Of a stretch of 30,758 nt of DNA, positions 753-18,962 are shown piece after piece. The stretch spans positions 1 to 30,758 of IMG/VR virus record IMGVR_UViG_3300005935_007929. One strand, given 5' to 3'. Both the position numbers and the translations under genes were made by a program. This DNA comes from a virus. Position 1 is the stretch's first letter. Each line of letters begins with the position of its first letter. Under the pieces are notes generated by a model. The model saw only the letters and a program-made list of their open reading frames with translations, searched no databases and was not told the origin of the DNA.

Positions 753-784
753 GCAGGAATAGTTTAGTGGCAAAATAATTCTCT
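753..784 (+). pseudogene. 5' half of a split tRNA
   Basis: Acceptor strand GCAGGAA (753-759), TA, D-arm GTTT-AGTGGCA-AAAT (762-776), then anticodon-stem strand ATTCT (778-782) and loop bases CT. The same D-arm pattern occurs in the intact tRNAs downstream. The acceptor strand pairs over 7 positions (one G-U) with TTCCTGT at 1250-1256, beyond the HNH gene. The anticodon cannot be read because the break lies in the anticodon loop. Confidence 0.6.
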
Positions 785-791
785 AAATAAT

Positions 792-1235
792 ATGAAAAAA
801 TATTGTTTAAATTGTAAAAAAGAATTTATCCCCACAAGTAGTAACCAAAGATATTGTTCTAAAAAGTGTAGAGATGAGATACTCCATTATAGAAATAGAA
901 AGTATTCTAAAAAATATCGTGAAGAACATACAGAAGAAACAAAAAGATATCGCCAAACTCTTGTAGGTAAGTATTATATAAATAGAGCACTTGCTAAAAT
1001 AAAGAATCATAAATGGGATTTAACACTTAAAGATTTTGAAACCTTTTGGCAAAAACCTTGTAGTTATTGTGGAGGTAAAATTAAAACTATTGGACTTGAT
1101 AGAATTGATAGTACTAAAGGATATACAATAGATAATGTGGTCTCCTGTTGTATTATTTGTAATCGTGCCAAAAGCAATTTAAGCCAGAAAGATTTTGTGG
1201 CTTACCTTAAAAGAGTAGTAGAATTTAATAAATAG
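792..1235 (+). CDS. HNH endonuclease inside a tRNA gene
   Basis: A 147-aa protein with an N-terminal four-cysteine zinc site (C5, C8, C22, C26), a basic linker, and a C-terminal HNH nuclease fold: C90-x2-C93, the GLDRID segment (101-106, where many HNH proteins have a His or Asp pair), N115 and the C120-x2-C123-N124 finger. Such proteins nick or cut DNA and often act as homing endonucleases in phages. The gene starts a few bases after the 5' half of a tRNA and its stop lies within the T-arm of the 3' half, so it fills the whole interruption. There is no room outside the reading frame for a group I intron core. The start has no Shine-Dalgarno sequence. Confidence 0.85.
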   Translation: MKKYCLNCKKEFIPTSSNQRYCSKKCRDEILHYRNRKYSKKYREEHTEETKRYRQTLVGKYYINRALAKIKNHKWDLTLKDFETFWQKPCSYCGGKIKTIGLDRIDSTKGYTIDNVVSCCIICNRAKSNLSQKDFVAYLKRVVEFNK

Positions 1236-1257
1236 AGTTCGAGTCTCTCTTCCTGTA
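1220..1257 (+). pseudogene. 3' half of a split tRNA
   Basis: AGAAT (1220-1224) is complementary to the ATTCT anticodon-stem strand at 778-782. A T-arm follows, with loop TTCGAGT (1238-1244) and a 4-bp stem plus one mismatch, then acceptor strand TTCCTGT (1250-1256) and discriminator A1257. The variable region would be 8 nt, longer than usual, and it overlaps the end of the HNH gene. It may be a relic or a spliced or interrupted gene; see findings. Confidence 0.55.
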
Positions 1258-1264
1258 CTTTCAT

Positions 1265-1337
1265 GGGCTGGAATGTTCCAAGGCTGGCGAAGGATACTTG
1301 CAATATCCTTGGGCGAGTTCGATTCTCGCTCGGTCCA
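1265..1337 (+). tRNA. tRNA-Ala (TGC)
   Basis: Acceptor GGGCTGG/TCGGTCC has the G3-U70 pair diagnostic for alanine. Anticodon arm GGATA-CTTGCAA-TATCC carries TGC; T-arm GCGAG-TTCGATT-CTCGC; A73. The D-stem is short (TTC/GAA). No encoded CCA. Confidence 0.85.
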
Positions 1338-1356
1338 CAACTCTGCCTCTATAATT

Positions 1357-1440
1357 ACTGGGATGGTGAAATTGGTAGCCACGTAAGTTTTAGAAACTTA
1401 TGCCTTCATTGGCTTGTGGGTTCGACTCCCACTCCCAGTA
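1357..1440 (+). tRNA. tRNA-Leu (TAG)
   Basis: Perfect 7-bp acceptor ACTGGGA/TCCCAGT, anticodon arm TAAGT-TTTAGAA-ACTTA, long class II variable arm and T-arm GTGGG/CCCAC. The bases after A73 are CCA (1441-1443), which could be an encoded tail, although most neighbours lack one. Confidence 0.88.
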
Positions 1441-1487
1441 CCAAAGATATAAAAAAATTATAGAATTAAAAATTTTTATTGCTTAGT

Positions 1488-1559
1488 GCCCAAGTAGCCA
1501 AGTAGTAAAGGCGACAGCTTGCAACACTGTTAACATAGGTGCGAATCCTATCTTGGGCT
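1488..1559 (+). tRNA. tRNA-Cys (GCA)
   Basis: Acceptor GCCCAAG/CTTGGGC, anticodon loop TTGCAAC with GCA, and discriminator T73, as expected for cysteine. The last anticodon-stem pair (C31-A39) is mismatched. Confidence 0.85.
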
Positions 1560-1565
1560 CATCAT

Positions 1566-1638
1566 CAGGGAATGATGTCAATGGTTAACATCCTAGTTTT
1601 GGATACTAGGTATTCAGGTTCGAATCCTGATTCCCTGA
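1566..1638 (+). tRNA. tRNA-Pro (TGG)
   Basis: Acceptor CAGGGAA/TTCCCTG begins with C1-G72, typical of proline. Anticodon arm CTAGT-TTTGGAT-ACTAG; T-arm TCAGG-TTCGAAT-CCTGA; A73. Confidence 0.88.
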
Positions 1639-1643
1639 CTTGA

Positions 1644-1714
1644 GGGGTGATAGTGAAGCAGTATCACGCTGGTCTCATAAGCCAGAGACGTCTGTGCAAT
1701 TCGGACTCACCCTA
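1644..1714 (+). tRNA. tRNA-Met or Ile2 (CAT)
   Basis: Acceptor GGGGTGA/TCACCCT (G1-U72), anticodon arm CTGGT-CTCATAA-GCCAG, T-stem GTCTG/CGGAC with loop TGCAATT. The D-loop AGCAGTA lacks the usual GG, so the tertiary core is unusual. CAT could mean elongator Met or lysidine-modified Ile2; sequence alone does not decide. Confidence 0.75.
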
Positions 1715-1721
1715 CTAGTTT

Positions 1722-1792
1722 GGGGCAGTAGTGTAGAAGTAGCACTAGATCTTGTGACGGTCTCAGCCAAGGTGCAAATCCTTGATGTCCCT
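1722..1792 (+). tRNA. tRNA-His (GTG)
   Basis: Anticodon arm AGATC-TTGTGAC-GGTCT gives GTG; D-arm GTGT/GCAC; T-arm CAAGG-TGCAAAT-CCTTG. Acceptor GGGGCAG/ATGTCCC has one mismatch at 7-66, and T at position 73 instead of the C usual for histidine. Confidence 0.75.
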
Positions 1793-1797
1793 AAGGA

Positions 1798-1869
1798 TGC
1801 GAGGTAGTCTAATTGGTAAGACTTCAAGCTCTGAACTTGACAATTGAGGTTCGAATCCTTGCCTCGCAA
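1798..1869 (+). tRNA. tRNA-Gln (CTG)
   Basis: Acceptor TGCGAGG/CCTCGCA starts with T1-A72, as in bacterial glutamine tRNAs. D-arm GTCT/AGAC, anticodon arm TCAAG-CTCTGAA-CTTGA, T-loop TTCGAAT, A73. Confidence 0.85.
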
Positions 1870-1872
1870 TAT

Positions 1873-1943
1873 GCCTTTTTAGTTTAATGGTAAAACAGTA
1901 GTCTCTTAAACTATCAATATTGGTTCGATTCCAATAAGAGGCA
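1873..1943 (+). tRNA. tRNA-Lys (CTT)
   Basis: Acceptor GCCTTTT/AAGAGGC, D-arm GTTT/AAAC, anticodon arm GTAGT-CTCTTAA-ACTAT with CTT, T-arm ATTGG-TTCGATT-CCAAT, A73. Confidence 0.82.
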
Positions 1944-1959
1944 AATTCTTAATTATAGA

Positions 1960-2030
1960 TGCAGGATCGTTTAATGGTAAAACGATGGATTGTTAATCCA
2001 TTAATCTAGGTTCGAATCCTAGTCCTGCAG
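1960..2030 (+). tRNA. tRNA-Asn (GTT)
   Basis: Acceptor TGCAGGA/TCCTGCA, D-arm GTTT/AAAC, anticodon arm ATGGA-TTGTTAA-TCCAT, T-arm CTAGG-TTCGAAT-CCTAG, and G73 as expected for asparagine. Confidence 0.9.
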
Positions 2031-2044
2031 CTAGTTTCAATTTT

Positions 2045-2117
2045 GGACAATTAGCTCAATTGGTAGAGTATCTGTGTTACATGCAGAATGTTGTAGGTTC
2101 GAGTCCTACATTGTCCA
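2045..2117 (+). tRNA. tRNA-Val (TAC)
   Basis: Acceptor GGACAAT/ATTGTCC, anticodon arm TCTGT-GTTACAT-GCAGA with TAC, T-arm GTAGG-TTCGAGT-CCTAC, A73. Confidence 0.88.
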
Positions 2118-2119
2118 CT

Positions 2120-2191
2120 GGGGTAGTAGCTCAACGGTAGAGCACTCGTTTGTCAGGCGAAAGGTTGTGAGTTCAAATCTCATCTGCCCCG
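2120..2191 (+). tRNA. tRNA-Asp (GTC)
   Basis: Acceptor GGGGTAG/CTGCCCC, D-arm GCTC/GAGC, anticodon loop TTGTCAG, T-arm GTGAG-TTCAAAT-CTCAT, and G73 typical of aspartate. Position 27-43 is mismatched. Confidence 0.85.
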
Positions 2192-2194
2192 CAT

Positions 2195-2265
2195 GCCTCT
2201 TTAGCTCAATGGTAGAGCCGTTGTTTTGTAAACATCAGATATTAGTTCGATTCTAATATGAGGCT
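2195..2265 (+). tRNA. tRNA-Thr (TGT)
   Basis: D-arm GCTC/GAGC, anticodon loop TTTGTAA with TGT, T-arm ATTAG-TTCGATT-CTAAT. Acceptor GCCTCTT/ATGAGGC has one T-T mismatch and the anticodon stem has another (28-42). Last tRNA of the array. Confidence 0.82.
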
Positions 2266-2338: not shown

Positions 2339-3790
2339 GTGTCTATTTTTGATTTTATAAAAAAACAAAAGATTGTAAAAACGAAACCAAGTAAAAAGAT
2401 TTTGGGTATTGGAGATCTTATTAAGGAACTTGGTATTGCTCGTGAGGGAGTAATAACATCATATGATACTGAAGAAAATCCTGATGATCTAGGTCCTGAA
2501 ACTTATATAGAAATGCAGGGGAATGACGGAGAGGTTCAAGCCATTGTTAGGCTTCTTTCTCTTCCTGTCAAAGCTACCCCATTTCATATTGTTCCTGCCG
2601 AAAATGATCATGGCGAAAGAGATTTTATAAATAATGTTTTTACTGCTCCTTATAGCTTAGGTGGTATGACAACACCACTTCCTTTTATTATTGCCGATAT
2701 GACTAGGGCTGTTTTTGAGGGTTTCCGTCTGTACGAAAAAGTGGCTAGAATTATTCCTGATGGTATATATAAGGGAAAAATTGGTTGGAAAAAATTAGCA
2801 CCTAGAGATGCTCAAACTATTGCTTTAAAAACAGATGAGCATGGAGGATTTAATGGAGCCACACAAAATGCAACCTTTGGTGGGGAATTAGTAAATGTTG
2901 ATATCCCTCCTGAAAAATGTATACTCTTTACTTTTCAGAAAGAGAAACATTGGTTGTATGGTGAGTCTATACTTAAGGCTGCTTATTATCATTATGATAA
3001 AAAGCATAAACTTTATTATATCGCCCACAAAAAAGCAGAGATTGAATCAACTGGTTTAAAAATTTTAAAAATTGGTCAAACTCTTACTTCTGCTGAAAGA
3101 GAGGCGGCGGAAACAACAATTGATACTATTGGAATAAATTCTAGGGTAACACTTCCTCCTGGGGTTGAATTAGAAATAGAAAGAGGAGGTGGAAATTATG
3201 ATCCATTACCCCTTATTCAACATCACAATTTGATGATGGCTCGTTCAGCATTGATTCAAGCAGTAGATCAAGTAAAATATGCTTACCCTTATGGTAAGGG
3301 AACTACTTCTTCTCAATTCTTAGTTTTATCCTTGGAATCAATTATGGCTGAAATGGAAGCTACATTAAATACATATGCCATTGCTCCTCTTATAGATTTG
3401 AATTTTAACTCACAGTCTTATCCTCAAATAAAATTCGAAAAAATTTCTGATGCATCTCGACAATTCTTAATGGATGTTTTTAGGATGATTATGAAACAAA
3501 AAGATGGGCTTCCAGAAGACTTTGTTGAAGAAGTAATTTATGAAACTGCGAAACAATTAAATTTGAATTGGGCTCTTAAAAAAGAAAAACCAAAGAAAGC
3601 AAAGAATGAAAAAGCTCTTATAGCTTTTGAAAAAGGGAAAGTAAAAATGGCAGACAAATTACATATTGATGCTCCTCCAACTCCTAAAAAACTTAAAGAA
3701 AAATTATTAAAGGTCGGACCCCAAGAAGAATTAGAAAATAAATGTTTTAAATTGGGTGAAGAATTTGCTTATGTCGGAAAAAAGAAGTAA
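2339..3790 (+). CDS. Phage portal protein (DUF935/Mu gp29-like)
   Basis: A 483-aa protein that I take as the portal, the dodecameric ring at the capsid vertex through which DNA is packaged. Evidence is its position immediately before capsid proteases, decoration protein and major capsid protein, and a middle region resembling the DUF935/Mu gp29 type: the FTFQKEKHWLYGESILKAAY segment (about residues 196-216), followed by a helical stem-like part and the conserved-looking YPYGKGTTSSQ segment near 318. The C-terminus (about 420-483) is Lys/Glu-rich. The start must be GTG at 2339, because the next in-frame ATG lies deep inside the fold; there is no clear ribosome site. The last 20 nt overlap the zinc-ribbon gene at 3771. 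The exact family is inferred from pattern, not searched. Confidence 0.75.
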   Translation: MSIFDFIKKQKIVKTKPSKKILGIGDLIKELGIAREGVITSYDTEENPDDLGPETYIEMQGNDGEVQAIVRLLSLPVKATPFHIVPAENDHGERDFINNVFTAPYSLGGMTTPLPFIIADMTRAVFEGFRLYEKVARIIPDGIYKGKIGWKKLAPRDAQTIALKTDEHGGFNGATQNATFGGELVNVDIPPEKCILFTFQKEKHWLYGESILKAAYYHYDKKHKLYYIAHKKAEIESTGLKILKIGQTLTSAEREAAETTIDTIGINSRVTLPPGVELEIERGGGNYDPLPLIQHHNLMMARSALIQAVDQVKYAYPYGKGTTSSQFLVLSLESIMAEMEATLNTYAIAPLIDLNFNSQSYPQIKFEKISDASRQFLMDVFRMIMKQKDGLPEDFVEEVIYETAKQLNLNWALKKEKPKKAKNEKALIAFEKGKVKMADKLHIDAPPTPKKLKEKLLKVGPQEELENKCFKLGEEFAYVGKKK

Positions 3791-7665: not shown

Positions 7666-8604
7666 ATGTTAGTAAAAACAGACATACCAAAACTTTTAAC
7701 GGCGGGAATGAGAAAGGAGTTTATGAAAGAGTTCGAAAAAGCTCCAGCAGAATGGGAAAAAATTGCTATCAAAATCAAATCGACAAAATCAGAAGAAGAT
7801 TATGCTTGGATTGGAGGTGTCCCAGGTTTACACGAATGGAGAGATGAAAGAATTCCAGAGGCATTACTCGAACACAACTATGCCATTAAAAATCTAGATT
7901 GGGAAGGTTCAATTGCAGTTAGCAAAAACGCAATTGATGATGAACAGTATAACCAGATTAACTTAAAGGTTAAACAGTTAGCCAATAGAGCAAAGAGATT
8001 TTGGGGAAAGATGGTCTTTAGACTTCTCTCCCAAGGAAATCTCTCTACTGGTACTGCAACAGTATTCAATGGAAAGAACATCACCTGTTATGACGGAAAT
8101 CCATTTTTCTATGGATCACATGAAGAGGGAGAATCTGGTAGTCAGAGTAATAAGGGAACAGTTGCTTTCAGTTTAGATGCTATGCAGACTGCTATGGAGG
8201 CAATGATGGCTCTTAAGGACGACAAAGGTGAGGAATTAGAGGTTAGACCTAATTTATTGGTTGTTAACCCAAAGAATATGTTCCTTGCTAGAGAAATCCT
8301 AAATAGTACCTATTTTCCTACTCAAACCGCAACGACTACTTTCAAATTAGCAAGCAACGTGATGAAAGGAATTGTTGATTTGTATGTTTCTCCTTTTGTA
8401 GATGCCGATGATTGGTTTTTGTTCGATACTACTGGAATCATAAAACCTGTTATCTTACAGGTAAGAAAGGATATTGATTTCCAGAGTTTATTAACTGGTC
8501 CAGAAGCATTTATGAGAAAGAAACTCTACTTCGGTGTTGATTGGAGAGGAATGGTTGGATGGGGTCTTTGGCAGTATGCCTATGGCTCAAGTAGTACTTG
8601 GTAG
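7666..8604 (+). CDS. Major capsid protein, Mu gpT-like
   Basis: A 312-aa protein with the features of the Mu-like major head subunit gpT: an N-terminal region LLTAGMRKEFMKEFEKAPAE, SEEDYAWIGGVPGLHEWRDER (near 45-65), NYAIKNLDWEGSIAVSKNAI, the VNPKNMFLAREIL strand (about 201-213), and a C-terminal FGVDWRGMVGWGLWQYAYGS. It forms the icosahedral shell and would be the final target of the upstream proteases. Translation starts 5 nt after the decoration protein stop, so the two are co-transcribed. It is the last recognisable head gene; no connector or tail-tube genes follow. Confidence 0.85.
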   Translation: MLVKTDIPKLLTAGMRKEFMKEFEKAPAEWEKIAIKIKSTKSEEDYAWIGGVPGLHEWRDERIPEALLEHNYAIKNLDWEGSIAVSKNAIDDEQYNQINLKVKQLANRAKRFWGKMVFRLLSQGNLSTGTATVFNGKNITCYDGNPFFYGSHEEGESGSQSNKGTVAFSLDAMQTAMEAMMALKDDKGEELEVRPNLLVVNPKNMFLAREILNSTYFPTQTATTTFKLASNVMKGIVDLYVSPFVDADDWFLFDTTGIIKPVILQVRKDIDFQSLLTGPEAFMRKKLYFGVDWRGMVGWGLWQYAYGSSSTW

Positions 8605-8667: not shown

Positions 8668-8696
8668 TTGCAATATTCGTTGATCTATGGTAGAAT
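8668..8696 (+). promoter_or_regulatory. Promoter of the glycan island, with inverted repeat
   Basis: TTGCAA (8668-8673), 17-nt spacer, TAGAAT (8691-8696). A perfect 9-bp inverted repeat, CTACCATAG (8647-8655) and CTATGGTAG (8685-8693), flanks the -35 and covers the first half of the -10, a possible operator. The open frame's first ATG (8687) lies within the promoter, which favours ATG 8768 as the true start. Confidence 0.5.
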
Positions 8697-8718
8697 GGAG
8701 AAGCAAGGATAAAAAAAG

Positions 8719-8751
8719 ATTGGAAGACTTGGCTTCTCCAGGTCTTCTAAT
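8719..8751 (+). other. Leader hairpin, 14-bp stem
   Basis: 8719-8732 pairs with 8738-8751 around the loop CTTCT: 14 consecutive pairs including two G-U. It has no U-tract, so it is not an intrinsic terminator. It lies in the predicted 5' UTR, ending 17 nt before ATG 8768, and may stabilise the mRNA or control translation. Confidence 0.5.
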
Positions 8752-8767
8752 CAAAAGAGAGATTCCT

Positions 8768-9706
8768 ATGAAAAAAGAGATTTTATTTCAATACAATAAG
8801 GAATACTTTAAAACAATTTCAGATGTTTACGAAAAAACAGCGAAAAAAATGAATAAAGTTCGTTGGGATTTCGTTAAAGAAACAAAACCTAAAATTGTTT
8901 TGGACTATGGGGCAGGAGCTAATTTTTTAACCAAATTTGCTCCCAAGGGAATTAAAGTTGATTCTTTTGATATTGGTAATTTTTCAGTAAAATATACTGG
9001 GATCAGGCATAAAAAATATGACCTGGTTTTTTTATCTGATGTTTTGGAACATATTCCTGATTTTAGTATTTTAGATGATATATTCAAAATGACTGATTAT
9101 TTTTATATTTCAACTCCTGTCTTACCTGAAAGTAAAAAACTAAGAGGATGGAAACATTTTAAATTTGAAACAAAGGAGCATTTACATTATTTTACCAAAA
9201 GGAGTTTAGATTTATTTTTTGAAGCAAGAGGTTTTAAAAATATAAAATCTGGATATCCCGAAGTAGAATGTGGATTAAGAAAAGATATTTATAGTGCTGT
9301 TTATAAAAAAGAAGTAGTTGTTTTTACTAATGGGGTATACGATATTTTACATTCGGGGCATATTCATTCATTAAAGGAAGCAAAAAAATTAGGAGATATT
9401 TTAATAGTTGGACTTAATTCTGATAAATCATCAACAAAAATAAAGCGAAAACCAATCAAAGACGAAAAAGAAAGAAAAGAAATATTAGAATCCATCAAAT
9501 ATGTTGATAAGGTTGAAATTTTTGATGAATTAAATCCACTCTTATTAATAAAGAAGATAAGACCAAATATTTTAGTAAAGGGTGGTGATTATAAAAAAGA
9601 GGATATTGTCGGATATAAATTTTTGAAAAGTTATGGTGGTCAAACTAAAACAGTTTCATACTTAAAAGGTCATTCAACAACTAATTTAATAAATAAAATA
9701 AAATGA
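8768..9706 (+). CDS. Methyltransferase fused to HldE-C-type nucleotidyltransferase
   Basis: A 312-aa fusion (start ATG 8768; an in-frame ATG at 8687 lies inside the promoter). Residues 1-175 are a class I SAM methyltransferase: motif I VLDYGAG (44-50), then VFLSDVLEHI and the late LHYFTKRSLDLFFEARGF typical of Methyltransf_11/23 members. Residues 183-312 are a cytidylyltransferase-like domain of the RfaE2/HldE C-terminal type: TNGVYDILHSGH with the HxGH nucleotide-binding motif (195-198), VGLNSDKS, LVKGGDY and the terminal HSTTNLI, close to the family's STTxII signature. HldE-C adenylylates heptose 1-phosphate to ADP-heptose. The kinase half of HldE is the next gene, overlapping by 4 nt (ATGA), so the bifunctional enzyme is split and its order reversed. 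Confidence 0.8.
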   Translation: MKKEILFQYNKEYFKTISDVYEKTAKKMNKVRWDFVKETKPKIVLDYGAGANFLTKFAPKGIKVDSFDIGNFSVKYTGIRHKKYDLVFLSDVLEHIPDFSILDDIFKMTDYFYISTPVLPESKKLRGWKHFKFETKEHLHYFTKRSLDLFFEARGFKNIKSGYPEVECGLRKDIYSAVYKKEVVVFTNGVYDILHSGHIHSLKEAKKLGDILIVGLNSDKSSTKIKRKPIKDEKERKEILESIKYVDKVEIFDELNPLLLIKKIRPNILVKGGDYKKEDIVGYKFLKSYGGQTKTVSYLKGHSTTNLINKIK

Positions 9707-10473
9707 AAGTTGCAATTCTTGGAGATAGTTTTGTAGATGAGTATCTATTTGGAGATGTAAATAGAATTTCTCCAGAAGCACCAGTTCCTATTTTAGATGT
9801 TAGAAAAAGGGAGCAAAGAGGAGGAGGTGCTATTAATGTTGCTAATAATTTGTATGGCTTGGGAATCGATTTAACACTTTTTACAATTACTAGCATGAAA
9901 TTGCCTTATAAGGTTATAAGTCCTCAAGGCTGTTCAATTCTAAAAAAAACTAGATATATTGGTAATGGCTCTCAACTTTTAAGGGTTGATGAACCACCTC
10001 ATTATTTAAAACAAGATTTGAAAAAGATGATTTACCCAAATCCAGATGATTTTGATTTAATTGCTTTTGTTGATTATGATAAGGGAATTGTTACTGGTGG
10101 AGAAGGAACAATTGTAGATTCAAAAAAGAAAGACTTATCAGTTTTTAAGGGTACAGAATATTTAAAAATAAATAATAAGGAGTATGCTGAAGCTGAAAAT
10201 AAAGGTTTTTTTCGAAAGGCTTTTATTACAAAAAATGCAAAGGGAATTGATTATTATGAATATGGAGAGTATAAATTTAATGAGCCAATACAAGCAAAAG
10301 AGGTTATAGATATAACTGGTGCTGGAGATACTGTAACAGCAACCTTAATCTTTTGCATAGCTAGAGGAATAACAGAACCAAAAGAAATGATGCGACTTGC
10401 TAATAAAGCTGCTGGAATTGTTGTTGGTAAATTAGGTACTTCAATTATAACTTTAAAAGAATTAAATGGATAA
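9703..10473 (+). CDS. hldE1-like: PfkB-family heptose-7-phosphate kinase (HldE N-terminal type)
   Basis: A 256-aa sugar kinase. The ISPEAPVPI motif (residues 22-30), the RGGGAINVANNLYGLG segment, VDYDKG, the ITGAGDT anion hole/catalytic Asp motif, and the ending NKAAGIVVGKLGTS are all characteristic of RfaE1/HldE-N, which phosphorylates D-glycero-D-manno-heptose 7-phosphate at C1. The protein is about 60 residues shorter than E. coli HldE-N, mainly in the lid and middle region, but the nucleotide and catalytic motifs are intact. It overlaps both neighbours (ATGA upstream, 8 nt downstream), indicating an operon with the nucleotidyltransferase and cupin. No GmhA or GmhB is seen in the window; the host or another part of the genome would have to supply them. 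Confidence 0.82.
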   Translation: MKVAILGDSFVDEYLFGDVNRISPEAPVPILDVRKREQRGGGAINVANNLYGLGIDLTLFTITSMKLPYKVISPQGCSILKKTRYIGNGSQLLRVDEPPHYLKQDLKKMIYPNPDDFDLIAFVDYDKGIVTGGEGTIVDSKKKDLSVFKGTEYLKINNKEYAEAENKGFFRKAFITKNAKGIDYYEYGEYKFNEPIQAKEVIDITGAGDTVTATLIFCIARGITEPKEMMRLANKAAGIVVGKLGTSIITLKELNG

Positions 10474-11095
10474 AATAAAATTAGTTAAAAAGGCATGGGG
10501 CGAGGAACATTGGATAGCAAACCAAGATTATTGTGGCAAACTTTTAATACTTAAGAGGGGTCTTCGTTGTTCTCTCCACTTACACAAAAAAAAAGATGAA
10601 GTATTTTATATTTATCGGGGTAAAGTCTTAATGGAAGCTGGAAATAAAAAATGGATAATGAAACAAGGAGATAAACAACATATATTACCAAATACTTTAC
10701 ATAGATTTACTGGTTTGACTGATGCCGAAATTATAGAATTTTCTTCTCATCATGAAGATTCTGATTCTTATAGAAAAGAACCATCAGGGAAAGCCTCTTT
10801 AAGAAAAGCTTATGATTATGATGGAGTAGTTAGTAAAAAGATTATACCAGAAGAAGGATCTCCAATAATTACTGGAAGAAGTTGGGAAGAAATTAATGCA
10901 ATTGATTTCAAGCGTATGAAGAAAAATCCAATTTACTTTAATCCAAAAACACGGTTAGAAAAAGAAAAATTTGCGAAAGAGTGGAAAGTAGAAATGATTA
11001 AAAAATTAGAGATAGAAGAATTTTATGAAGACGAACCAGAAATAGTAGTTTATCTTGAAAAAAAATGTCCGAATTGTCATATAATAAAAGTTTAA
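10466..11095 (+). CDS. Cupin sugar-isomerase-like protein with CxxC tail
   Basis: A 209-aa protein. Residues 1-125 are a cupin: the opening KKAWGEEHWIANQDYCGK, metal-ligand pattern SLHLHKKKDEVFYI (His38, His40, Glu45), ILPNTLHRF (second His) and IEFSSHHEDSDSYR. This resembles cupins found in heptose/capsule clusters and type II mannose-6-phosphate isomerases. Its exact reaction is not determinable; a role in the isomerisation or epimerisation of a phosphosugar fits the context. The C-terminal ~80 residues are a separate charged region ending in CPNCHIIKV, a possible redox or metal CxxC. It is tightly packed between the kinase and a SWIM mini-protein. Confidence 0.65.
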   Translation: MDKIKLVKKAWGEEHWIANQDYCGKLLILKRGLRCSLHLHKKKDEVFYIYRGKVLMEAGNKKWIMKQGDKQHILPNTLHRFTGLTDAEIIEFSSHHEDSDSYRKEPSGKASLRKAYDYDGVVSKKIIPEEGSPIITGRSWEEINAIDFKRMKKNPIYFNPKTRLEKEKFAKEWKVEMIKKLEIEEFYEDEPEIVVYLEKKCPNCHIIKV

Positions 11096-11096
11096 T

Positions 11097-11291
11097 ATGA
11101 GAAAATTCAAAGTTAGTTCTAAAACTAAAAAAGGAGTTTTTTATATAGTAGAGGCAAACGAGAATGAAATCGAGTGCAATTGTCCTGCTGGGGAAAGAGG
11201 TTTCGAGTGTAATCATAAAAAATTGATTAAAGATTTTATAGATCGTAAATTAATATCTTCAGAACAACTTTTGAGGATTAAGGAAATATGA
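11097..11291 (+). CDS. 64-aa SWIM-type zinc finger protein
   Basis: A 64-residue protein consisting almost solely of a SWIM finger: C27-x-C29-x8-C38-x-H40 within IECNCPAGERGFECNHKK, preceded by a beta segment (FKVSSKTKKGVFYIVEA) and followed by a helix. SWIM domains bind DNA or protein and are normally part of larger proteins (for example MuDR transposases or SWI2/SNF2 ATPases), so a stand-alone version is unusual. It overlaps the epimerase gene by 4 nt and has a weak AGGA-like sequence. Its role inside a sugar operon is unknown. Confidence 0.7.
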   Translation: MRKFKVSSKTKKGVFYIVEANENEIECNCPAGERGFECNHKKLIKDFIDRKLISSEQLLRIKEI

Positions 11292-12079
11292 AAAAAATAA
11301 TTCTATTTGGTGGTCATGGCTTTATTGGTTCAAATCTAACTAGGGCTCTTCAAAATAAATACAAATTAACCTTATGGGACAAAGATATTTGTAAAGGCAT
11401 AAATATTAAAAATGATTTTGACTATATTTATCACTTAGCCGCTAATACTGATGCTAGATTTCCTGATGATGTAGAAATGTATAGAAATAATATTTTGAGT
11501 TTTTTGGAAGTTCTTAAGTTTGCTCTCAAGGGAAAAGGTAAGTTGATATATACTTCATCTGCTTCGGTTTATGGTTGTAAAAATAATAATATAATAAATG
11601 CTTATGCTCATTCTAAGAGATTAGTAGATGAAATTGCTGAAAGATTTTCTAGCAGATTAAAAATAGTTGGCTTGAGACCATTCAATGTTTATGGAGAAGG
11701 TGAATTGGGGAAAGGGAAAAATGCTAGTGTAATCACTCAATGGCGAGAACAGATATTAAAAGGAGAAAGACCTACCATTTTTTCAGGTGATTATAAACGA
11801 GATTTTATTTATGTAAAAGATGTAGTTAAAGGACTTAAGAAGGCAATGAAGCTAAAAAATGGAATTTATGATTTAGGAACAGGAATAGCAACTGATTTCT
11901 TTGATGTTTTTAAAATTGTTACGAAGGTCATGGATGTTTATATTGAACCAAGTGTCATTAAAAATCCTTACATAGGAACTTATCAAGAATATACTAAAGC
12001 AAATATCAAGTGGGGTTTTAAACCAGATTATACCGTCGAATCTGGAATCAAAGATTACTTTAAAGATGAAAGAAAATAA
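11288..12079 (+). CDS. hldD-like: ADP-heptose 6-epimerase-like SDR (HldD-like)
   Basis: A 263-aa extended short-chain dehydrogenase. It has the NAD(P)-binding GGHGFIGSN (8-16), HLAANTD, the TSSASVYG segment, and the catalytic Tyr106-x3-Lys110. Several later motifs follow HldD rather than generic epimerases: RPFNVYGEGELGKGKNAS (130-147), KRDFIYVKDV (170-179), YDLGTG and a late GTYQEYTKAN. HldD interconverts ADP-D-glycero- and ADP-L-glycero-D-manno-heptose, so it completes the pathway suggested by the neighbouring kinase and nucleotidyltransferase. It is about 45 residues shorter than E. coli HldD, mainly in the N-terminal half. Overlaps with both neighbours indicate one operon. Confidence 0.72.
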   Translation: MKKIILFGGHGFIGSNLTRALQNKYKLTLWDKDICKGINIKNDFDYIYHLAANTDARFPDDVEMYRNNILSFLEVLKFALKGKGKLIYTSSASVYGCKNNNIINAYAHSKRLVDEIAERFSSRLKIVGLRPFNVYGEGELGKGKNASVITQWREQILKGERPTIFSGDYKRDFIYVKDVVKGLKKAMKLKNGIYDLGTGIATDFFDVFKIVTKVMDVYIEPSVIKNPYIGTYQEYTKANIKWGFKPDYTVESGIKDYFKDERK

Positions 12080-12863
12080 AAGAAAAATAGGGATTATCGG
12101 TTCTGAAGGTTGTGTTGGTAAACCTCAAGTTTCTTTTTGGAGTTATGGTGAAATTTATTCAGTCTTTCGGTTTGATATTTCTCTAGTTCTAAATTCAAAG
12201 GAAGCAATTAATTCTTGTGATCTTGCAGTAATTTGTGTACCTACCCCTGAGAGAGAAGATGGATCTTGTGACACTTCAATTGTTGAAGAGTCAGTTAAAT
12301 GGATAGAAGCTCCCGTTATTCTCATTAAATCGACAATTCCACCAGGAACTATTGATTTTTTGAGAAAAAAATATCGTAAAAGAATAGTTCATAGTCCAGC
12401 ATTTCTTCTTGAAACCAAATATGGCAATCCTAATAAATTTTGGAAAGATCCTTTGGCGATTCCATTTGTAATTTTAGGAGGTTATCCTAAGGATAGAAAT
12501 TATGTTTATAATCTTCTTCTGCCCATTACTGGATCTAAAACTTTTAAATTTATGAGTGCCAAAGATAGTGAGATGGTAAAATATATGAGTAATTCTTTTG
12601 GGGCATTGAAAGTTACTTGGGCTACTGAGATAAAAAGAGTTTGTGATGCTTCGGGAGTTAACTTTGGAGAAGTAAGGGAAGCTTGGTCTTTAGATCCTAG
12701 TGTAACAAAATCTCATACTCTTGTTTTTCAAGATAAACCTGGTTTTAGCGGAGCTTGCCTTCCAAAAGATAGTAGAGCCTTAGTTCAGTTTGCAGAGAAG
12801 GCTGGTTATGCCGCGGAATTAATTAAAGAAGTGTTAAGATTAAATGAAAAATTTAAATCCTAA
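12066..12863 (+). CDS. Short UDP-sugar 6-dehydrogenase (Ugd/WecC family)
   Basis: A 265-aa protein of the UDP-glucose/GDP-mannose dehydrogenase family. It has a divergent Rossmann start (IGIIGSEGCVGKP), VICVPTPE (55-62), IKSTIPPGT (87-95), the SPAFLLE equivalent of PEFLxE, KYMSNSFGALKVTWATE, and GFSGACLPKD with the catalytic Cys231. It oxidises a nucleotide sugar to a uronic acid; beside WecB the substrate may be UDP-ManNAc. The usual third domain, which binds the UDP part (~150 residues), is absent: the gene ends soon after the central helix, and the next gene starts inside it (20-nt overlap). It may act on a different substrate or in a minimal form. Confidence 0.75.
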   Translation: MKENKRKIGIIGSEGCVGKPQVSFWSYGEIYSVFRFDISLVLNSKEAINSCDLAVICVPTPEREDGSCDTSIVEESVKWIEAPVILIKSTIPPGTIDFLRKKYRKRIVHSPAFLLETKYGNPNKFWKDPLAIPFVILGGYPKDRNYVYNLLLPITGSKTFKFMSAKDSEMVKYMSNSFGALKVTWATEIKRVCDASGVNFGEVREAWSLDPSVTKSHTLVFQDKPGFSGACLPKDSRALVQFAEKAGYAAELIKEVLRLNEKFKS

Positions 12864-13947
12864 AATTCTTTGTGTAGTTGGAACTAGATCCGATCTTATA
12901 AAGATTGCTTCTTTTTTAAGAGAATTGAAGAAAGATAAGTGGGCAGAAACGATTTTAGTTTTTACTGGTCAACATTATGACTATGAAATGTCTCAGATAT
13001 TTTTTCAGAATTTGGATATTTCAAAACCCAAATACAATCTTAAAGTAGGATCTGGTTCACATGCTTTTCAAACAGGCAAAATAATTGAAAGGTTAGAACC
13101 TATTCTTATAAAAGAAAAACCGAATTTAGTGATTGTAGTCGGTGATGTAAATTCAACTTTAGCTGGAGCTTTAACAGCAACAAAATTACATATTCCAATT
13201 GTTCACATTGAGTCGGGATTGAGAAGTTTTGATATGTTAATGCCCGAAGAAATTAATAGGAAACTTACTGATCATATATCTAATTTCCTATTTGCTACAG
13301 AACCAAGTGGAGTAAAGAACCTTTTAAGAGAAGGAATTTCAAAAAACAAAATCTTTTTAGTAGGAAATACAGCGATTGATATTTTAAAGGACTTACTACC
13401 TAAAATTCGGAAATCTAAAATATTAAAAGAATTGAAACTTAAGGATAAGGATTATGGAGTTTTAACCTTACATCGTCCTGAGAATGTTGATAATCCCGAA
13501 TTGTTCAAGCAACTTCTAGATATATTAACTAATGTTCAAGAGAAGATAAAAATAATTTTTCCAATTCATCCTAGAACTAAAAAGATACTTGAAAAATTAG
13601 AAGGATATAACCTTAGTAATGTGGAAATTATTAAACCTTTAGGGTATCTCGATTTTTTAGCCCTAGTTCTTCATTCCAAATTTGTCTTGACAGACAGTGG
13701 TGGCATTCAGGAAGAAACAACATTTTTGAAGATTCCTTGTTTAACTTTACGAAAGAATACTGAACGACCAATTACTATTACCCTAGGATCAAATATTCTT
13801 TGTGATAGTAATAAGAAGAAAATATTAAATGAGGTAGATAAGATTTTAAAAGGAAAATATAAAAAATCTAAGATTCCCAAATTTTGGGATGGTAAAACTA
13901 CTGAAAGAATTATTAAAATTTTAAAGAAATATGTTAAACATAATTGA
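12844..13947 (+). CDS. wecB: UDP-N-acetylglucosamine 2-epimerase (non-hydrolysing)
   Basis: A 367-aa protein of normal family length. It carries VVGTRSDLIK (11-20), TGQHYDYEM, VVGDVNST, the HIESGLRS motif (121-128) followed by MPEEINRKLTDHIS, LTLHRPENVDN and TDSGGIQEE, which together are diagnostic. It converts UDP-GlcNAc to UDP-ManNAc. The upstream dehydrogenase could then make UDP-ManNAcA, a common surface polysaccharide building block. The family's VVGTRPE is here VVGTRSD, a small deviation near the active site. Confidence 0.92.
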   Translation: MKNLNPKILCVVGTRSDLIKIASFLRELKKDKWAETILVFTGQHYDYEMSQIFFQNLDISKPKYNLKVGSGSHAFQTGKIIERLEPILIKEKPNLVIVVGDVNSTLAGALTATKLHIPIVHIESGLRSFDMLMPEEINRKLTDHISNFLFATEPSGVKNLLREGISKNKIFLVGNTAIDILKDLLPKIRKSKILKELKLKDKDYGVLTLHRPENVDNPELFKQLLDILTNVQEKIKIIFPIHPRTKKILEKLEGYNLSNVEIIKPLGYLDFLALVLHSKFVLTDSGGIQEETTFLKIPCLTLRKNTERPITITLGSNILCDSNKKKILNEVDKILKGKYKKSKIPKFWDGKTTERIIKILKKYVKHN

Positions 13948-13953
13948 ACTATT

Positions 13954-14982
13954 ATGTATCCTATAAATTATATAGATTGCAAAACTACTTGGGATGAATG
14001 GGCAAAAAAACATCCTGAAATAGTAAATAGAAAAAGAAAAGTGGTACTTCGCCAAGGTCAATCTCCTGGTGATGTCTTAACTTTTACGAGAGCAGTAGGA
14101 GATTTAAAGGAAAGTTATCCAAATTATGATATAGATGTTAGAAGTCCATGCCCAGAAATTTGGGAGAATAATCCTAACATTACATCCTTAAAAGAAAATG
14201 ATACTGATGTTGAAGTTTTTAGTATTACTTATGATGAGATAAACCAGAGTGGATGGAATGGATTACATTTTAGCGATGCTTTCCGACATGATTTGGAAAA
14301 ACAATTAGGTGTTCCAATAAAAAAAACAGGAATAAGACCAGAATTATGGATTTCAGATGAAGAGAAATCTTGGTATGGAAAGCCACATTGTGAATTTGGT
14401 TGGGATGGACCTTATTGGGTTTTGAATGCAGGAGCAAAGCCAGACAATGAATTAAAGCAATATCATAGATATCAAGAATTTGTAGATTTATTTAATAAAA
14501 AATTTAAAGGAGTAGTAAGACTGATTCAAGTAGGTCATCAAGATCATATTCATCCGAAATTAAATGGTGTACTTAATTTAATAGGTAAAACTAATTTGAG
14601 AGAAATGATTCGTTTGATTTATTGGTCTGAGGGAACTATTGGACCATTATCTTTGCAATTTGTAATAAGTGCAGCCTTTGAACAATCAGCAGTTTGTTTA
14701 GCAGCAGGAAAAGAAGGAGTAAGATGGCATCTCTATCCTCAAATGCGTTATATTCACACGAATGGTGCATTAGAATGTTGCCCATGGGATGGATGTTGGT
14801 TGGGAGGAGAAAAAGGAAGTTGTAAAGACTTAGTTGATGGAGTTCCAAAATGTTTTCGTTTAATTAAGCCTTATATGATAAGTGATGCTGTCGAAATGTA
14901 TTATGAAGGTGGAAAACTTAAATTACCAACCGAAGAAGAGAATAATAAATTTCAAGAAGATTTCAAAAAATTTAAAAAATAA
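13954..14982 (+). CDS. GT9-type heptosyltransferase-like enzyme with cysteine finger
   Basis: A 342-aa GT-B glycosyltransferase. The N-terminal domain has VLRQGQSPGDVLTFTRAVGDL (31-51), the GT9 opening motif where GDVL follows a flexible loop; the C-terminal domain has VLNAGAKPD (156-164) and a donor-site region YWSEGTIGPLSLQFVISAA (223-241). Near the end is a cysteine cluster, Cys275/276, 281, 290 and 300, ending in KCFRLIKPYMI. Cysteine fingers of this kind occur in some GT9 enzymes and, coordinating iron, in the autotransporter heptosyltransferases (TibC/Aah) that attach heptose to serine. With the ADP-heptose genes next door, a heptosyltransferase is the likeliest assignment; the acceptor is unknown. 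It closes the first operon; a new promoter follows. Confidence 0.72.
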   Translation: MYPINYIDCKTTWDEWAKKHPEIVNRKRKVVLRQGQSPGDVLTFTRAVGDLKESYPNYDIDVRSPCPEIWENNPNITSLKENDTDVEVFSITYDEINQSGWNGLHFSDAFRHDLEKQLGVPIKKTGIRPELWISDEEKSWYGKPHCEFGWDGPYWVLNAGAKPDNELKQYHRYQEFVDLFNKKFKGVVRLIQVGHQDHIHPKLNGVLNLIGKTNLREMIRLIYWSEGTIGPLSLQFVISAAFEQSAVCLAAGKEGVRWHLYPQMRYIHTNGALECCPWDGCWLGGEKGSCKDLVDGVPKCFRLIKPYMISDAVEMYYEGGKLKLPTEEENNKFQEDFKKFKK

Positions 14983-14993
14983 GATACCAAACA

Positions 14994-15022
14994 TTGACCC
15001 AAACAACTTTTTCTATTAAAAT
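14994..15022 (+). promoter_or_regulatory. TTGACCCAA promoter
   Basis: TTGACC (14994-14999, within TTGACCCAA), 17-nt spacer, TAAAAT (15017-15022). The expected start near 15029 leaves only about 5 nt before ATG 15034, an almost leaderless mRNA. Confidence 0.6.
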
Positions 15023-15033
15023 AAATTAAATAC

Positions 15034-15450
15034 ATGTCTAAGAATAAAATAATAGTATATGCTTATGTAGTTGGAGATATTTTTCACATAGGACATTTAA
15101 AAGCAATAAAAAATGCGAAAAAACAGGGAGATTATCTAATAGTTGGAGTCCTAACCGACAAAGCCACTATGGAGAAAAAGCCAAAACCCATAATCTCATT
15201 TAGACAGAGATTAAAAACGGTTGAGGCAATAAGATATGTTGATAATGTAGTTCCACAATATACATATTCCCCTCTACCAAATGTTAAAAAAATTAGACCC
15301 AATGTTTTGATGGAGAGTGATAGCCATAAAAAACAGCCTGCTAATAAATTTGTTGAATCCTATGGAGGTAAAGTAGTTGTTACTCCATATTATAAACCTC
15401 AAAGTTCAACTAAAATAAAAAATAAAGTGAAAGAAAATTGGAAAAAATAA
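15034..15450 (+). CDS. Cytidylyltransferase-like nucleotidyltransferase (TagD/RfaE2 fold)
   Basis: A 138-aa single-domain enzyme. GDIFHIGHLKAI holds the HxGH motif (His18-His21), followed by GDYLIVGVLTDKA, KPIISFRQRLKTVEAIRYVD, and a terminal SSTKIKNK similar to the STTxI motif of the superfamily. Members couple CTP or ATP to a small phosphorylated alcohol or sugar (glycerol phosphate, phosphoethanolamine, phosphocholine or heptose phosphate). The IRYVDNVVPQ...PN segment leans towards the glycerol/ethanolamine-phosphate type. Because a LicD-family transferase follows two genes later, a CDP-activated phospho-alcohol is a reasonable guess; the substrate cannot be fixed. Confidence 0.75.
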   Translation: MSKNKIIVYAYVVGDIFHIGHLKAIKNAKKQGDYLIVGVLTDKATMEKKPKPIISFRQRLKTVEAIRYVDNVVPQYTYSPLPNVKKIRPNVLMESDSHKKQPANKFVESYGGKVVVTPYYKPQSSTKIKNKVKENWKK

Positions 15451-15452
15451 TT

Positions 15453-15833
15453 ATGACAAAAGATTCACATAAAAAATCAATTTTAAAATCTATTATATGG
15501 AGAATTCTAGGAGTAATAGTATTAGCAACAGTAGTTTATCTTTATACAAGACAATGGATAACCACTGGATTAATTACAGTTATTCATCACGCTACATTTT
15601 TGTTAGTGTTTTATTTGCACGAGAGATTATGGTTTAAAATAAAAAAGTTTTCAGGGGCACTAAGGCGTATTATAAAAGCATTTACCTATGAAATAATATT
15701 AGGAATGGGACTTGGTGGATTAATTGTCTTATTAGTTACAGGACAATGGTCAAGAGTAACACAAATTACAATTACTTATACAGCAATAAAATTGATAATG
15801 TATTATTTTTACGAGAAAATTTGGACAAAATAA
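15453..15833 (+). CDS. Membrane protein with tandem DUF2061-like units
   Basis: A 126-aa protein; ATG 15453 is preferred over ATG 15438 because the latter lies inside the previous gene. Four hydrophobic segments are arranged as two similar halves: residues ~8-55 (SIIWRILGVIVLATVVYLYT ... HERLW) and ~70-126 (KAFTYEIILGMGLGGLIVLL ... YEKIW). Each half ends in an E+(L/I)W motif, as in DUF2061. The family's function is unknown; relatives are often found near sugar or sulfate activation genes. It should sit in the host inner membrane. Confidence 0.7.
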   Translation: MTKDSHKKSILKSIIWRILGVIVLATVVYLYTRQWITTGLITVIHHATFLLVFYLHERLWFKIKKFSGALRRIIKAFTYEIILGMGLGGLIVLLVTGQWSRVTQITITYTAIKLIMYYFYEKIWTK

Positions 15834-15847
15834 ATTAATAAATATTT

Positions 15848-16462
15848 ATGGGACAAGATGATAAAACAAGTTTTAGAGAAAAAGCGACTCAAGACCTAAA
15901 TGAGATAAAAGAGGTTTACGATAAATTAGGGATTAAGTTCTTTTTAGTATATGGTACATTATTGGGTGCTGTCAGAGAAAAAAATGTCATCGTAACAGAC
16001 CATGATAATGATATCGGATTATTTGGAGAAGATATTTATAGGGGTGAAGAAATATACTTTGCTCTTAAAGAGGCTGGTTTTTTAGTTGGTACTTATGTAA
16101 GTTTGCAAGACCCTAATGGAAATGTAAAAAGACCAGTTATGTTTTTAACAAACAAAAGGGTAAAAACTGAACATATTTTTCTTTTTAAAGTAGGGGATAA
16201 GAGAGTTACTTGGTATTCCACAAGAAAAAATGAAAAAACTGGAGTAACAGAGTCTCTTGTCTGGGAAAATGATGCAAAACATTTTGAATATTTGGAAGAA
16301 ACTCCGTTTTTAAATAAAAAATACCTAGTTCCTAACCATCCCAAAGAATTATTAGATTTATGGTATAAAAATTGGGGAGTTCCATCAGGTGCTCAAGTTT
16401 GGGGTTATAAATGTCCTAGATTTTGGAAAGCATTTGATCCAGTTAAAGAAGTTTTTAAATAA
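15848..16462 (+). CDS. LicD-family phosphotransferase
   Basis: A 204-aa protein with the nucleotidyltransferase-fold signature of LicD/fukutin-like enzymes: YGTLLGAVRE (35-44) and TDHDNDIGLFGED (50-62), whose acidic residues bind metal, and a C-terminal tail NHPKELLDLWYKNWGVP. Family members transfer phosphocholine or other phospho-alcohols from a CDP-linked donor to glycans. The HxGH nucleotidyltransferase two genes upstream could make such a donor. It reads as part of the operon starting at 15029. Confidence 0.82.
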   Translation: MGQDDKTSFREKATQDLNEIKEVYDKLGIKFFLVYGTLLGAVREKNVIVTDHDNDIGLFGEDIYRGEEIYFALKEAGFLVGTYVSLQDPNGNVKRPVMFLTNKRVKTEHIFLFKVGDKRVTWYSTRKNEKTGVTESLVWENDAKHFEYLEETPFLNKKYLVPNHPKELLDLWYKNWGVPSGAQVWGYKCPRFWKAFDPVKEVFK

Positions 16463-16471
16463 TATAATATT

Positions 16472-17095
16472 ATGATTGAAAGTTGGAAAGAAGACAAATT
16501 ATTATCGGGTTTTAGCAATCACTTTTTGAGTGAACCCAATGCCACTTTGCCATATTATGCTCCTTTGATGTATATTTGGATAATGGCTCATAAGCATAAA
16601 AAGATATTGGAGGTTGGTGTAGCTGAAGGCTATTCTTCTTACTACTTTGCTTATGCAGCAAAGAAAAATGAGGGAATGTACTATGGTATTGATATTCTTC
16701 CAGATCGTTGTGAGAAAGTAGATAAAGCTTTAACCGAAGCAGATTTCCCCCACAAAATTATCTGTGCTGATACTAGAAAAATGGAAAAGATTGATTTTAC
16801 AGATAGAATTGATTTAGCATTTTTAGATGGAGAACATTCAACTGAAACAGTCAGTCGTGAAATTGAAATGATTTATCCTTTATTGGATGTTCAGGGCAGA
16901 GGGTATATATTTATTCACGATATTGTAGATATGGGAAATGCTGGAATTTGGTTGAAGTTAAAAAACGATAAAAGATTTGAAACATTGGGGATGGAGCCAA
17001 ATTATGGATTAGGAATTGCCAGAAAAATGGAGGGTCTTGATTATGAAGAAAATGCTAGAAAATTTGAAACCAAAGAGTCGGAAGATCAATTTTAA
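16472..17095 (+). CDS. Class I SAM methyltransferase (Methyltransf_24-like)
   Basis: A 207-aa protein. Motif I is KILEVGVAEGYSS (44-56), followed by YGIDI, ICADTRKM, and AFLDGEHSTETVSREIEMIYPLL, the acidic block seen in Methyltransf_24/CmcI-like sugar methyltransferases, and FIHDIVD. It probably O-methylates a sugar of the glycan built by this island. No Shine-Dalgarno; short 9-nt gap after licD-like gene. A second member of the same family is encoded at 18963. Confidence 0.78.
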   Translation: MIESWKEDKLLSGFSNHFLSEPNATLPYYAPLMYIWIMAHKHKKILEVGVAEGYSSYYFAYAAKKNEGMYYGIDILPDRCEKVDKALTEADFPHKIICADTRKMEKIDFTDRIDLAFLDGEHSTETVSREIEMIYPLLDVQGRGYIFIHDIVDMGNAGIWLKLKNDKRFETLGMEPNYGLGIARKMEGLDYEENARKFETKESEDQF

Positions 17096-17113
17096 TTAAT
17101 TAAAATAAAGACA

Positions 17114-18055
17114 ATGAAATATGCTTACATAGCAACAGTCAATCCTGGATATATGTTTTCGATGAATGCTACTATAAATGCGAACAAATATTATGGCACT
17201 AATGCTGATGTCCATCTTCTTTATTTTGGTAATTTTAAAGAAGAATATATGAAAAGATGTGAAACTGCTTTTCCTTTTGAAGTGAGATGGGTTAAAATGA
17301 CTGAAGGAAATTATTTTGATGCAAAATATCGGTATGCTGCTACTTTGAAAGATAAATATGATGCAATATCTATTATTGATGCAGACTTATTTATATGTTC
17401 TGATACCAAGGAATATTTTGAAAAAGCCGCAAATGAAAATATATTAATTACTGGAACCCGAGTTCGTTCAGGGATGAAGAATAAGACAGACATGGCATGG
17501 AATAATCCTGAAGAGGTAAATGACAGATCAAGAAGTTATTTTGCAGATTTTCCAACATTTATCAATCCTAAATCTGGACAAAAATTACTTGATTGTTGGT
17601 TTAAAAATACTAACAAGGCTTATATTCCTTCTGGGTCTTTTGGAGATAGATATCATCCTTTAATAGCCCTTAACAGATGTATTTGTGAGCTTTTATCACC
17701 TGAGCAAACATTGGCTCTAGATGGAAATTTTTGGAATGCCGATTTTAAAATAAGTTTAACTGACTTTATTAGAAAGGACGATATTATGATAAATGAAAAA
17801 GGAGAAAGATTTTATGCCATTCATAATAAATGGTGGAAATCTGGAATGGCTCAACATGAGCTCAGAATTGCTCCTCATCTTAAAAATGATGTAGAAGTAA
17901 ATAAAAGGTTAGATAGACTTGAAAAAAATATGAATGAGATTAGGAATTTTATGATTTGGTTTAATGAGATGACACCATCTACTAGAAGGGATGATTATTA
18001 TAAAGAAAAGATAGATAGAATGGAATATTTGAGACGTGAAGAAAAATTATTATGA
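17114..18055 (+). CDS. GT-A-type glycosyltransferase with coiled-coil tail
   Basis: A 313-aa protein starting YAYIATVNPGY, with a DVHLLYFG strand and IIDADLF, which contains the DxD metal/nucleotide-sugar motif (89-91). A late IHNKWWKSG segment resembles the terminal His-rich part of GT8-like enzymes. The C-terminal ~50 residues (about 257-313) are charged and helical, likely a coiled coil. It is distantly similar in layout to the protein at 20449 (both start with an AYI strand and have DAD near residue 90-100), suggesting related enzymes with different substrates. Confidence 0.7.
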   Translation: MKYAYIATVNPGYMFSMNATINANKYYGTNADVHLLYFGNFKEEYMKRCETAFPFEVRWVKMTEGNYFDAKYRYAATLKDKYDAISIIDADLFICSDTKEYFEKAANENILITGTRVRSGMKNKTDMAWNNPEEVNDRSRSYFADFPTFINPKSGQKLLDCWFKNTNKAYIPSGSFGDRYHPLIALNRCICELLSPEQTLALDGNFWNADFKISLTDFIRKDDIMINEKGERFYAIHNKWWKSGMAQHELRIAPHLKNDVEVNKRLDRLEKNMNEIRNFMIWFNEMTPSTRRDDYYKEKIDRMEYLRREEKLL

Positions 18056-18062
18056 AGAAATT

Positions 18063-18962
18063 ATGAAAATATTAATAACAGGTTCACAAGGAACATTAGG
18101 TCAGCCCTTGATGAAAGAATTAAGAAAACGAGGACACGAAGTTTGGGGTTGTGATATATCTCATCAGAAAGATGAGAAATATATTAGGTGTGATATTTCT
18201 GAATTTAGACAAATAGAAAAAGTTTTATCCAAGAAGTTTGATTTTGTTTATAATCTTGCTGCTGAATTTGGCAGAATTAATGGAGAAGAATATTATGAAA
18301 AAGTTTGGAAAACTAATGTAATTGGTTTAAGAAATATCCTTGAACTTCAAAAGAAATTTGGTTTTAAATTAATTCATACTTCTTCTTCAGAGATTTATGG
18401 AGATATTAAAGTTGATTATTTAAAAGAAGATATAATTCCGTCATATCAAGAAAACGATTATGCAATTTCTAAATGGGTGAATGAAATGCAATGTAAGAAT
18501 TTTACTAAAAGATATGGAAATGAGATAATGACGATTAGATTATTTAATGCTTATGGACCTGGAGAATTTTATACTCCTTATCGTTCAGTAGTATGTTTAT
18601 TTTGTTATCGAGCACTATTGGATTTACCTTATACTGTATTTAAAGATTATCATAGGGTTTTTATGTATATTGATGATTTAATTCCTACCTTTGCTAATGC
18701 CTGTGAGAAATTTGTTTCAGGTGAAATTATTAATATCGGTGGTGAAGAATATCGTTCTGTCGAAGAATTAAATAATATAATTCTAAAACAACTTGGCAAA
18801 ACAGATAAATTTGTAACTTACTTGCCACAGGATAAACATAATATCACAAATAAAAGACCAGATATTACAAAGGCTAAAAAATTATTAAATCATAATCCTT
18901 CTATTCCATTGGAAGTTGGTGTTGAAAGAACTTTGGAATGGATGAAACAGGTTTATAAATAA
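18063..18962 (+). CDS. NAD-dependent sugar epimerase/dehydratase
   Basis: A 299-aa extended SDR; ATG 18063 is chosen because the fold begins directly with MKILITGSQGTLG, whereas the upstream GTG (18036) adds nine residues inside the previous gene. It has the NAD-binding GxxGxxG, NLAAEFG, HTSSSEIYGD, catalytic YAISK, RLFNAYGPGE, and MYIDDL near the substrate site. These features fit nucleotide-sugar 4-epimerases or 4,6-dehydratases; the exact product is unknown. It ends one base before the next gene start. Confidence 0.85.
   Translation: MKILITGSQGTLGQPLMKELRKRGHEVWGCDISHQKDEKYIRCDISEFRQIEKVLSKKFDFVYNLAAEFGRINGEEYYEKVWKTNVIGLRNILELQKKFGFKLIHTSSSEIYGDIKVDYLKEDIIPSYQENDYAISKWVNEMQCKNFTKRYGNEIMTIRLFNAYGPGEFYTPYRSVVCLFCYRALLDLPYTVFKDYHRVFMYIDDLIPTFANACEKFVSGEIINIGGEEYRSVEELNNIILKQLGKTDKFVTYLPQDKHNITNKRPDITKAKKLLNHNPSIPLEVGVERTLEWMKQVYK

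Follow-up and report, generated by a model that had tools for sequence, protein, structure and literature searches.

The window analysed here is a virus record of 30,758 bases from a tailed phage, with a portal gene at 2339-3790, whose distant relatives occur in phages of Gordonia, Arthrobacter and Bacillus, and a gene for the major capsid protein at 7666-8604. Behind the capsid gene, positions 8687-21375 hold a block of nucleotide-sugar, glycosyltransferase-like and methyltransferase-like genes, as judged only from reading their translations, and the frame at 23335-26922 encodes a protein of 1195 aa with a very long serine/phenylalanine repeat. Searches of bacterial and archaeal genomes with the portal protein and with a portal alignment for a host-revealing prophage found no relative. 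Upstream of the portal gene lies an array of tRNA genes, which is headed by a tRNA gene on the array's strand that is split in the anticodon loop and holds a gene for an HNH endonuclease (Table 1).

Table 1. Coordinates of the split tRNA gene, its insert and the adjoining array in the window.
Feature	Position	Strand	Basis
tRNA 5' half: acceptor, D-arm, 5' strand of the anticodon stem, C32-U33	753-784	+	sequence, ARAGORN
Anticodon-loop insert, either end uncertain by a few nt	785-1219	+	sequence; ARAGORN intron call, 430 nt
HNH (PacI-like) endonuclease gene, 147 aa	792-1235	+	reading frame; PHROG, profile and fold matches
tRNA 3' half: AGAAT strand, variable loop, T-arm, acceptor, A73	1220-1257	+	sequence, ARAGORN
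Twelve uninterrupted tRNA genes in an array that directly follows the split tRNA	1265-2265	+	

The split tRNA gene and its array

The 5' half comprises the acceptor strand GCAGGAA (753-759), a D-arm with GG (762-776) and the anticodon-stem strand ATTCT (778-782), followed by CT at positions 32 and 33 (783-784). The 3' half opens with AGAAT (1220-1224), fully complementary to ATTCT, and continues with an unusual variable region of 8 nt (TTAATAAA, 1225-1232), the T-arm TAGAG-TTCGAGT-CTCTC (1233-1249; one of its five stem pairs is a T.C mismatch) and the acceptor strand TTCCTGT (1250-1256), which forms seven pairs with 753-759, one of them G.U, ahead of A73. The first-pass annotation had placed both halves and their complementary stems here, and this is borne out both by the letters and by ARAGORN, which with introns allowed reports a tRNA spanning 753-1258 and interrupted in its anticodon loop. 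ARAGORN's label for it, Tyr(ata), is not believed because it depends on where the program cuts the insert. Isotype signals are mixed: the D-arm resembles those of Gly, Asn, Lys and Arg tRNAs, and the acceptor and T-arm resemble those of a phage Leu tRNA, with 24 nt of T-arm and acceptor identical to the tRNA-Leu of Vibrio phage VspSw_1.

Neither 2000 shuffled versions of the region nor 1.8 Mb of Markov sequence yielded a split-tRNA call from ARAGORN in intron mode. The program's calls on real DNA are not error-free, since 602 kb of other phage DNA gave one independent false split call outside tRNA arrays and two cross-pairings within real tRNA arrays. The false call, a split Leu tRNA of the same sequence in two contigs (L009 and L014), was rejected as a second case of an HNH gene in a tRNA, as it extends over ordinary genes and matches no intron. 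Taken by itself, the 5-bp match of the anticodon stem (ATTCT/AGAAT) would be weak evidence, and the case for a split tRNA rests on the acceptor, the T-arm, the D-arm and the position in the array. A chance origin is not expected for a gene at the head of the array, on the same strand, a few nucleotides before the next tRNA (Ala) and with an HNH frame between its halves.

It is unlikely that the halves are unrelated 5' and 3' tRNA remnants that came to lie on either side of a free-standing HNH gene when the array was shuffled. Phage tRNA acceptors are alike, the 5' half will also pair with the 3' half of the Asn tRNA, and a short stem match in AT-rich DNA beside an abnormal variable loop would suit such an origin, but the 7-bp acceptor match, the correct order and strand of the halves, the exact fit of the HNH frame between them and the lack of chance calls in random DNA all speak against it.

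The same arrangement is present in a second contig (L018) with 100% identity over 8604 nt, which makes a one-off misassembly unlikely. This contig adds no independent lineage, and the finding is that of one population of one phage.

Further features of the array were observed in a sister contig (L019), whose portal is 82% identical. The T-loop UGCRA, with G replacing the usual U55, occurs in the window tRNAs at 1488-1560, 1644-1715 and 1722-1792 and in the Met, His and Asp tRNAs of the sister phage. Just upstream of both arrays (615-745 in the window, 4715-4870 in L019) lies an RNA-like element, conserved in a comparison of two sequences only, with a long closing helix, a hairpin maintained through compensatory changes and, as a strand that recurs, AAGCAGRGAYA, possibly capable of alternative pairing with TGTCTCTGCTT; Rfam gave no match. 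An unrelated phage contig of 113 kb (L065) carries at 1-400 the array Arg(ACG)-Arg(TCT)-Gly(TCC) and, behind it, a tRNA-Ala-like sequence that shares its anticodon arm with the tRNA-Ala of the window.

The HNH endonuclease gene

The encoded protein consists of an N-terminal zinc-finger-like segment and an HNH domain. It is related to a large number of phage HNH endonucleases. PHROG matches were to endonuclease VII and HNH families, and the Pfam HNH match of the single protein remained below the cut-off. A profile comparison matched it to PacI with an E-value of 1.6e-9, and the core with its DRxD..GY..N..CN..K motif is kept, which places the protein among the PacI-like HNH proteins. PacI was also the top Foldseek match of the predicted fold (E 9.8e-5; mean pLDDT 78.6, low over the first 40 residues). 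Among HNH relatives with a solved structure, R.PacI (PDB 3LDY) is thus the nearest in both sequence and fold; unlike the window protein, with its own N-terminal segment, it is a restriction enzyme.

Of about 435 nt of insert, 428 are coding. The gene then runs on into the tRNA: the first 16 nt of the 3' half, AGAATTTAATAAATAG (1220-1235), double as the codons of the protein's tail, EFNK, and the stop codon TAG (1233-1235), which falls in the T-stem, so that the frame and the stop within the T-arm reported by the first-pass annotation are upheld. Relatives of the protein in viral contigs show 29-43% identity within the alignment, and most of them can be aligned as far as KR(I/V) or the equivalent residues, ending 6-11 residues later in dissimilar tails. 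Because these tails diverge, EFNK lies in the variable part of the protein; all codons except the last few are those of a conserved-type protein. The start context (TAAATAATATG) is AT-rich and without a Shine-Dalgarno sequence, like that of most other genes of the phage. The sampled relatives are free-standing genes outside tRNAs, nearly all at loci without any tRNA, and Rfam detected no introns at these loci. A scan with the HNH alignment for further HNH genes in tRNAs returned the same 16 loci, among which that of the window was the sole one inside a split tRNA.

Splicing and the fate of the tRNA

A permissive Rfam search of 600-1400 yielded no group I or group II intron even at an E-value of 10. 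The conserved catalytic core of a group I intron was not found; together with the conserved-type codons, this sustains the earlier view of a frame that takes up the insert and has no space beside it for an intron core. With no Rfam intron and an insert that is almost entirely coding, the gene lies outside any self-splicing intron or intein, as is characteristic of a free-standing homing endonuclease. The yardstick applied previously, that HNH genes in tRNAs normally travel inside group I introns, was too narrow because free-standing homing endonucleases need no introns.

Loops of 7 nt formed from the flanking bases carry only the anticodons GUA (with G37-U38), AUA or AAA, and none of the junctions tried for such a loop restores a typical anticodon arm, bases 37-38 being atypical. 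A functional class I tRNA, with a 7-nt loop, a usable anticodon and a variable loop of 4-5 nt, would not be expected from joining the halves. The best predicted fold of the joined halves is not a cloverleaf, a minor point because single-sequence folds often miss cloverleafs. A bulge-helix-bulge, the archaeal splice motif, was sought at the junctions and not found, which sets the insert apart from archaeal tRNA introns; the sole candidate (773/1226) has an outer and a central helix, has no inner helix and lies off the anticodon stem. The results on intron search, splice motif, loop and variable loop favour a dead tRNA but fall short of proof. The intact pairing of the anticodon stem is what selection for a spliced tRNA would predict, and a recent insertion could explain it too.

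The first-pass annotation had left three options: a destroyed tRNA, a catalytic RNA overlapping the coding sequence and removal of the insert in a new way. The first is the best supported, and positive evidence was found for neither of the others. We consider it improbable that an insert without an intron core is still removed from the tRNA precursor, or that the acceptor and T-arm across the insert form an RNase P / RNase Z unit releasing the endonuclease mRNA; a new route of removal has against it the missing bulge-helix-bulge, the failure to restore a typical anticodon arm and the 8-nt variable loop. Also improbable is a self-splicing intron, cryptic or strongly reduced, that has a core overlapping the HNH coding sequence and restores the tRNA on splicing. 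Group I introns of bacterial tRNAs usually sit in the anticodon loop, U33 precedes the insert and both stems are still complementary, but such an intron has no match in the Rfam search, would have to reside in an insert that is nearly all coding and whose product aligns with HNH proteins outside tRNAs, and would leave the deficient loops described above. Protein-dependent removal or joint use of the halves (archaeal-type splicing, a tRNA in pieces) is improbable too. The halves are intact, ordered and on one strand, and mobE in nrdA and mobA in gene 60 are examples of insertions that split protein genes (PMC2988022), but the junctions have no bulge-helix-bulge, no archaeal splicing endonuclease is expected because capsid and portal are of the bacterial tailed-phage type, and the unjoined halves would have no intact anticodon.

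Probable insertion of an intronless cassette

The locus thus combines a split tRNA with an intact HNH frame that runs into the tRNA, and no intron is recognisable. The best explanation, to which we assign a probability of about 0.74, is that an intronless HNH homing-endonuclease cassette was inserted in a dispensable phage tRNA and inactivated it. A free-standing HNH gene would have entered the anticodon loop of the array's first tRNA gene as a cassette reaching from approximately 7 nt before the start codon to near the last conserved codons, and the landing site would contribute the final four codons together with the stop. The interrupted tRNA would be a pseudogene from which no working tRNA is made, a loss that the phage could bear, since most phage tRNAs are dispensable. 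The enzyme would be active, cut tRNA genes and home. The site of insertion probably coincides with the enzyme's own cleavage site or lies close to it, so the carrier would be protected from cleavage, and insert-free tRNA arrays would be open to cutting and conversion.

Besides the intact pairing of the anticodon stem, two further results count against the insertion of such a cassette. In the sister contig L019 the start of the array differs, and the segment split tRNA-Ala-Leu-Cys is absent. The empty site was sought in viral contigs with five sequence patterns, one of them carrying an extra base, and neither an uninterrupted tRNA nor a diverged copy was found; the matches were to the identical contig, to L019, to sequences fitting by chance (L064, L066, L067) and to other tRNAs (a tRNA-Gly in L062 and the array of L065). 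The joined halves matched phage records only at the 3' end of the Vibrio phage tRNA-Leu. The comparison with uninterrupted relatives that had been proposed earlier was thus carried out on viral contigs and phage records and produced none, which makes the empty site, its role as target and the direction of the change putative.

Among known systems, tRNA group I introns also place an endonuclease gene in the anticodon region; Bonocora and Shub reportedly described in 2001 such introns in tRNA-fMet, together with endonucleases that have a specificity for the anticodon region. They differ from the window insert, in which no intron core was detected. Free-standing homing endonucleases can split genes and occur in tRNA arrays (PMC2988022). 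Like the window gene, the free-standing HNH endonuclease genes mobE in Aeh1 nrdA and mobA in T4 gene 60 divide a host gene (PMC2988022), but there protein genes are divided into separate coding regions, for which the split tRNA has no shown equivalent. SegB, whose gene is a free-standing homing endonuclease gene located in the T4 tRNA array (PMC2988022) and which cleaves within tRNA genes (PMC13096335), belongs to the GIY-YIG family and is encoded between two tRNA genes, whereas the HNH gene lies within one. The ShiLan HNH insertion in actinophage DNA methylase genes, which has likewise been compared with PacI, fills its site without intron or intein (PMC11855218). It shares with the window a cassette that extends almost from end to end, with the start near the 5' edge and the stop at the 3' edge, but its host is a protein gene whose open frame is kept through the insertion, whereas a tRNA is beyond rescue by a read-through frame. 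Intronless endonuclease insertion is therefore already known from these examples (mobE in nrdA, the ShiLan insertion and SegB in its array); a literature search of partial coverage found no description of a bare HNH gene placed in the anticodon loop of a tRNA.

If the insertion of a bare cassette is correct, tRNA genes, at their anticodon loop, would join the hosts entered by homing-endonuclease cassettes without an intron. This is consistent with the idea that homing-endonuclease genes occupy conserved sites first and may gain introns later, and it would help to account for turnover and pseudogenes in phage tRNA arrays.
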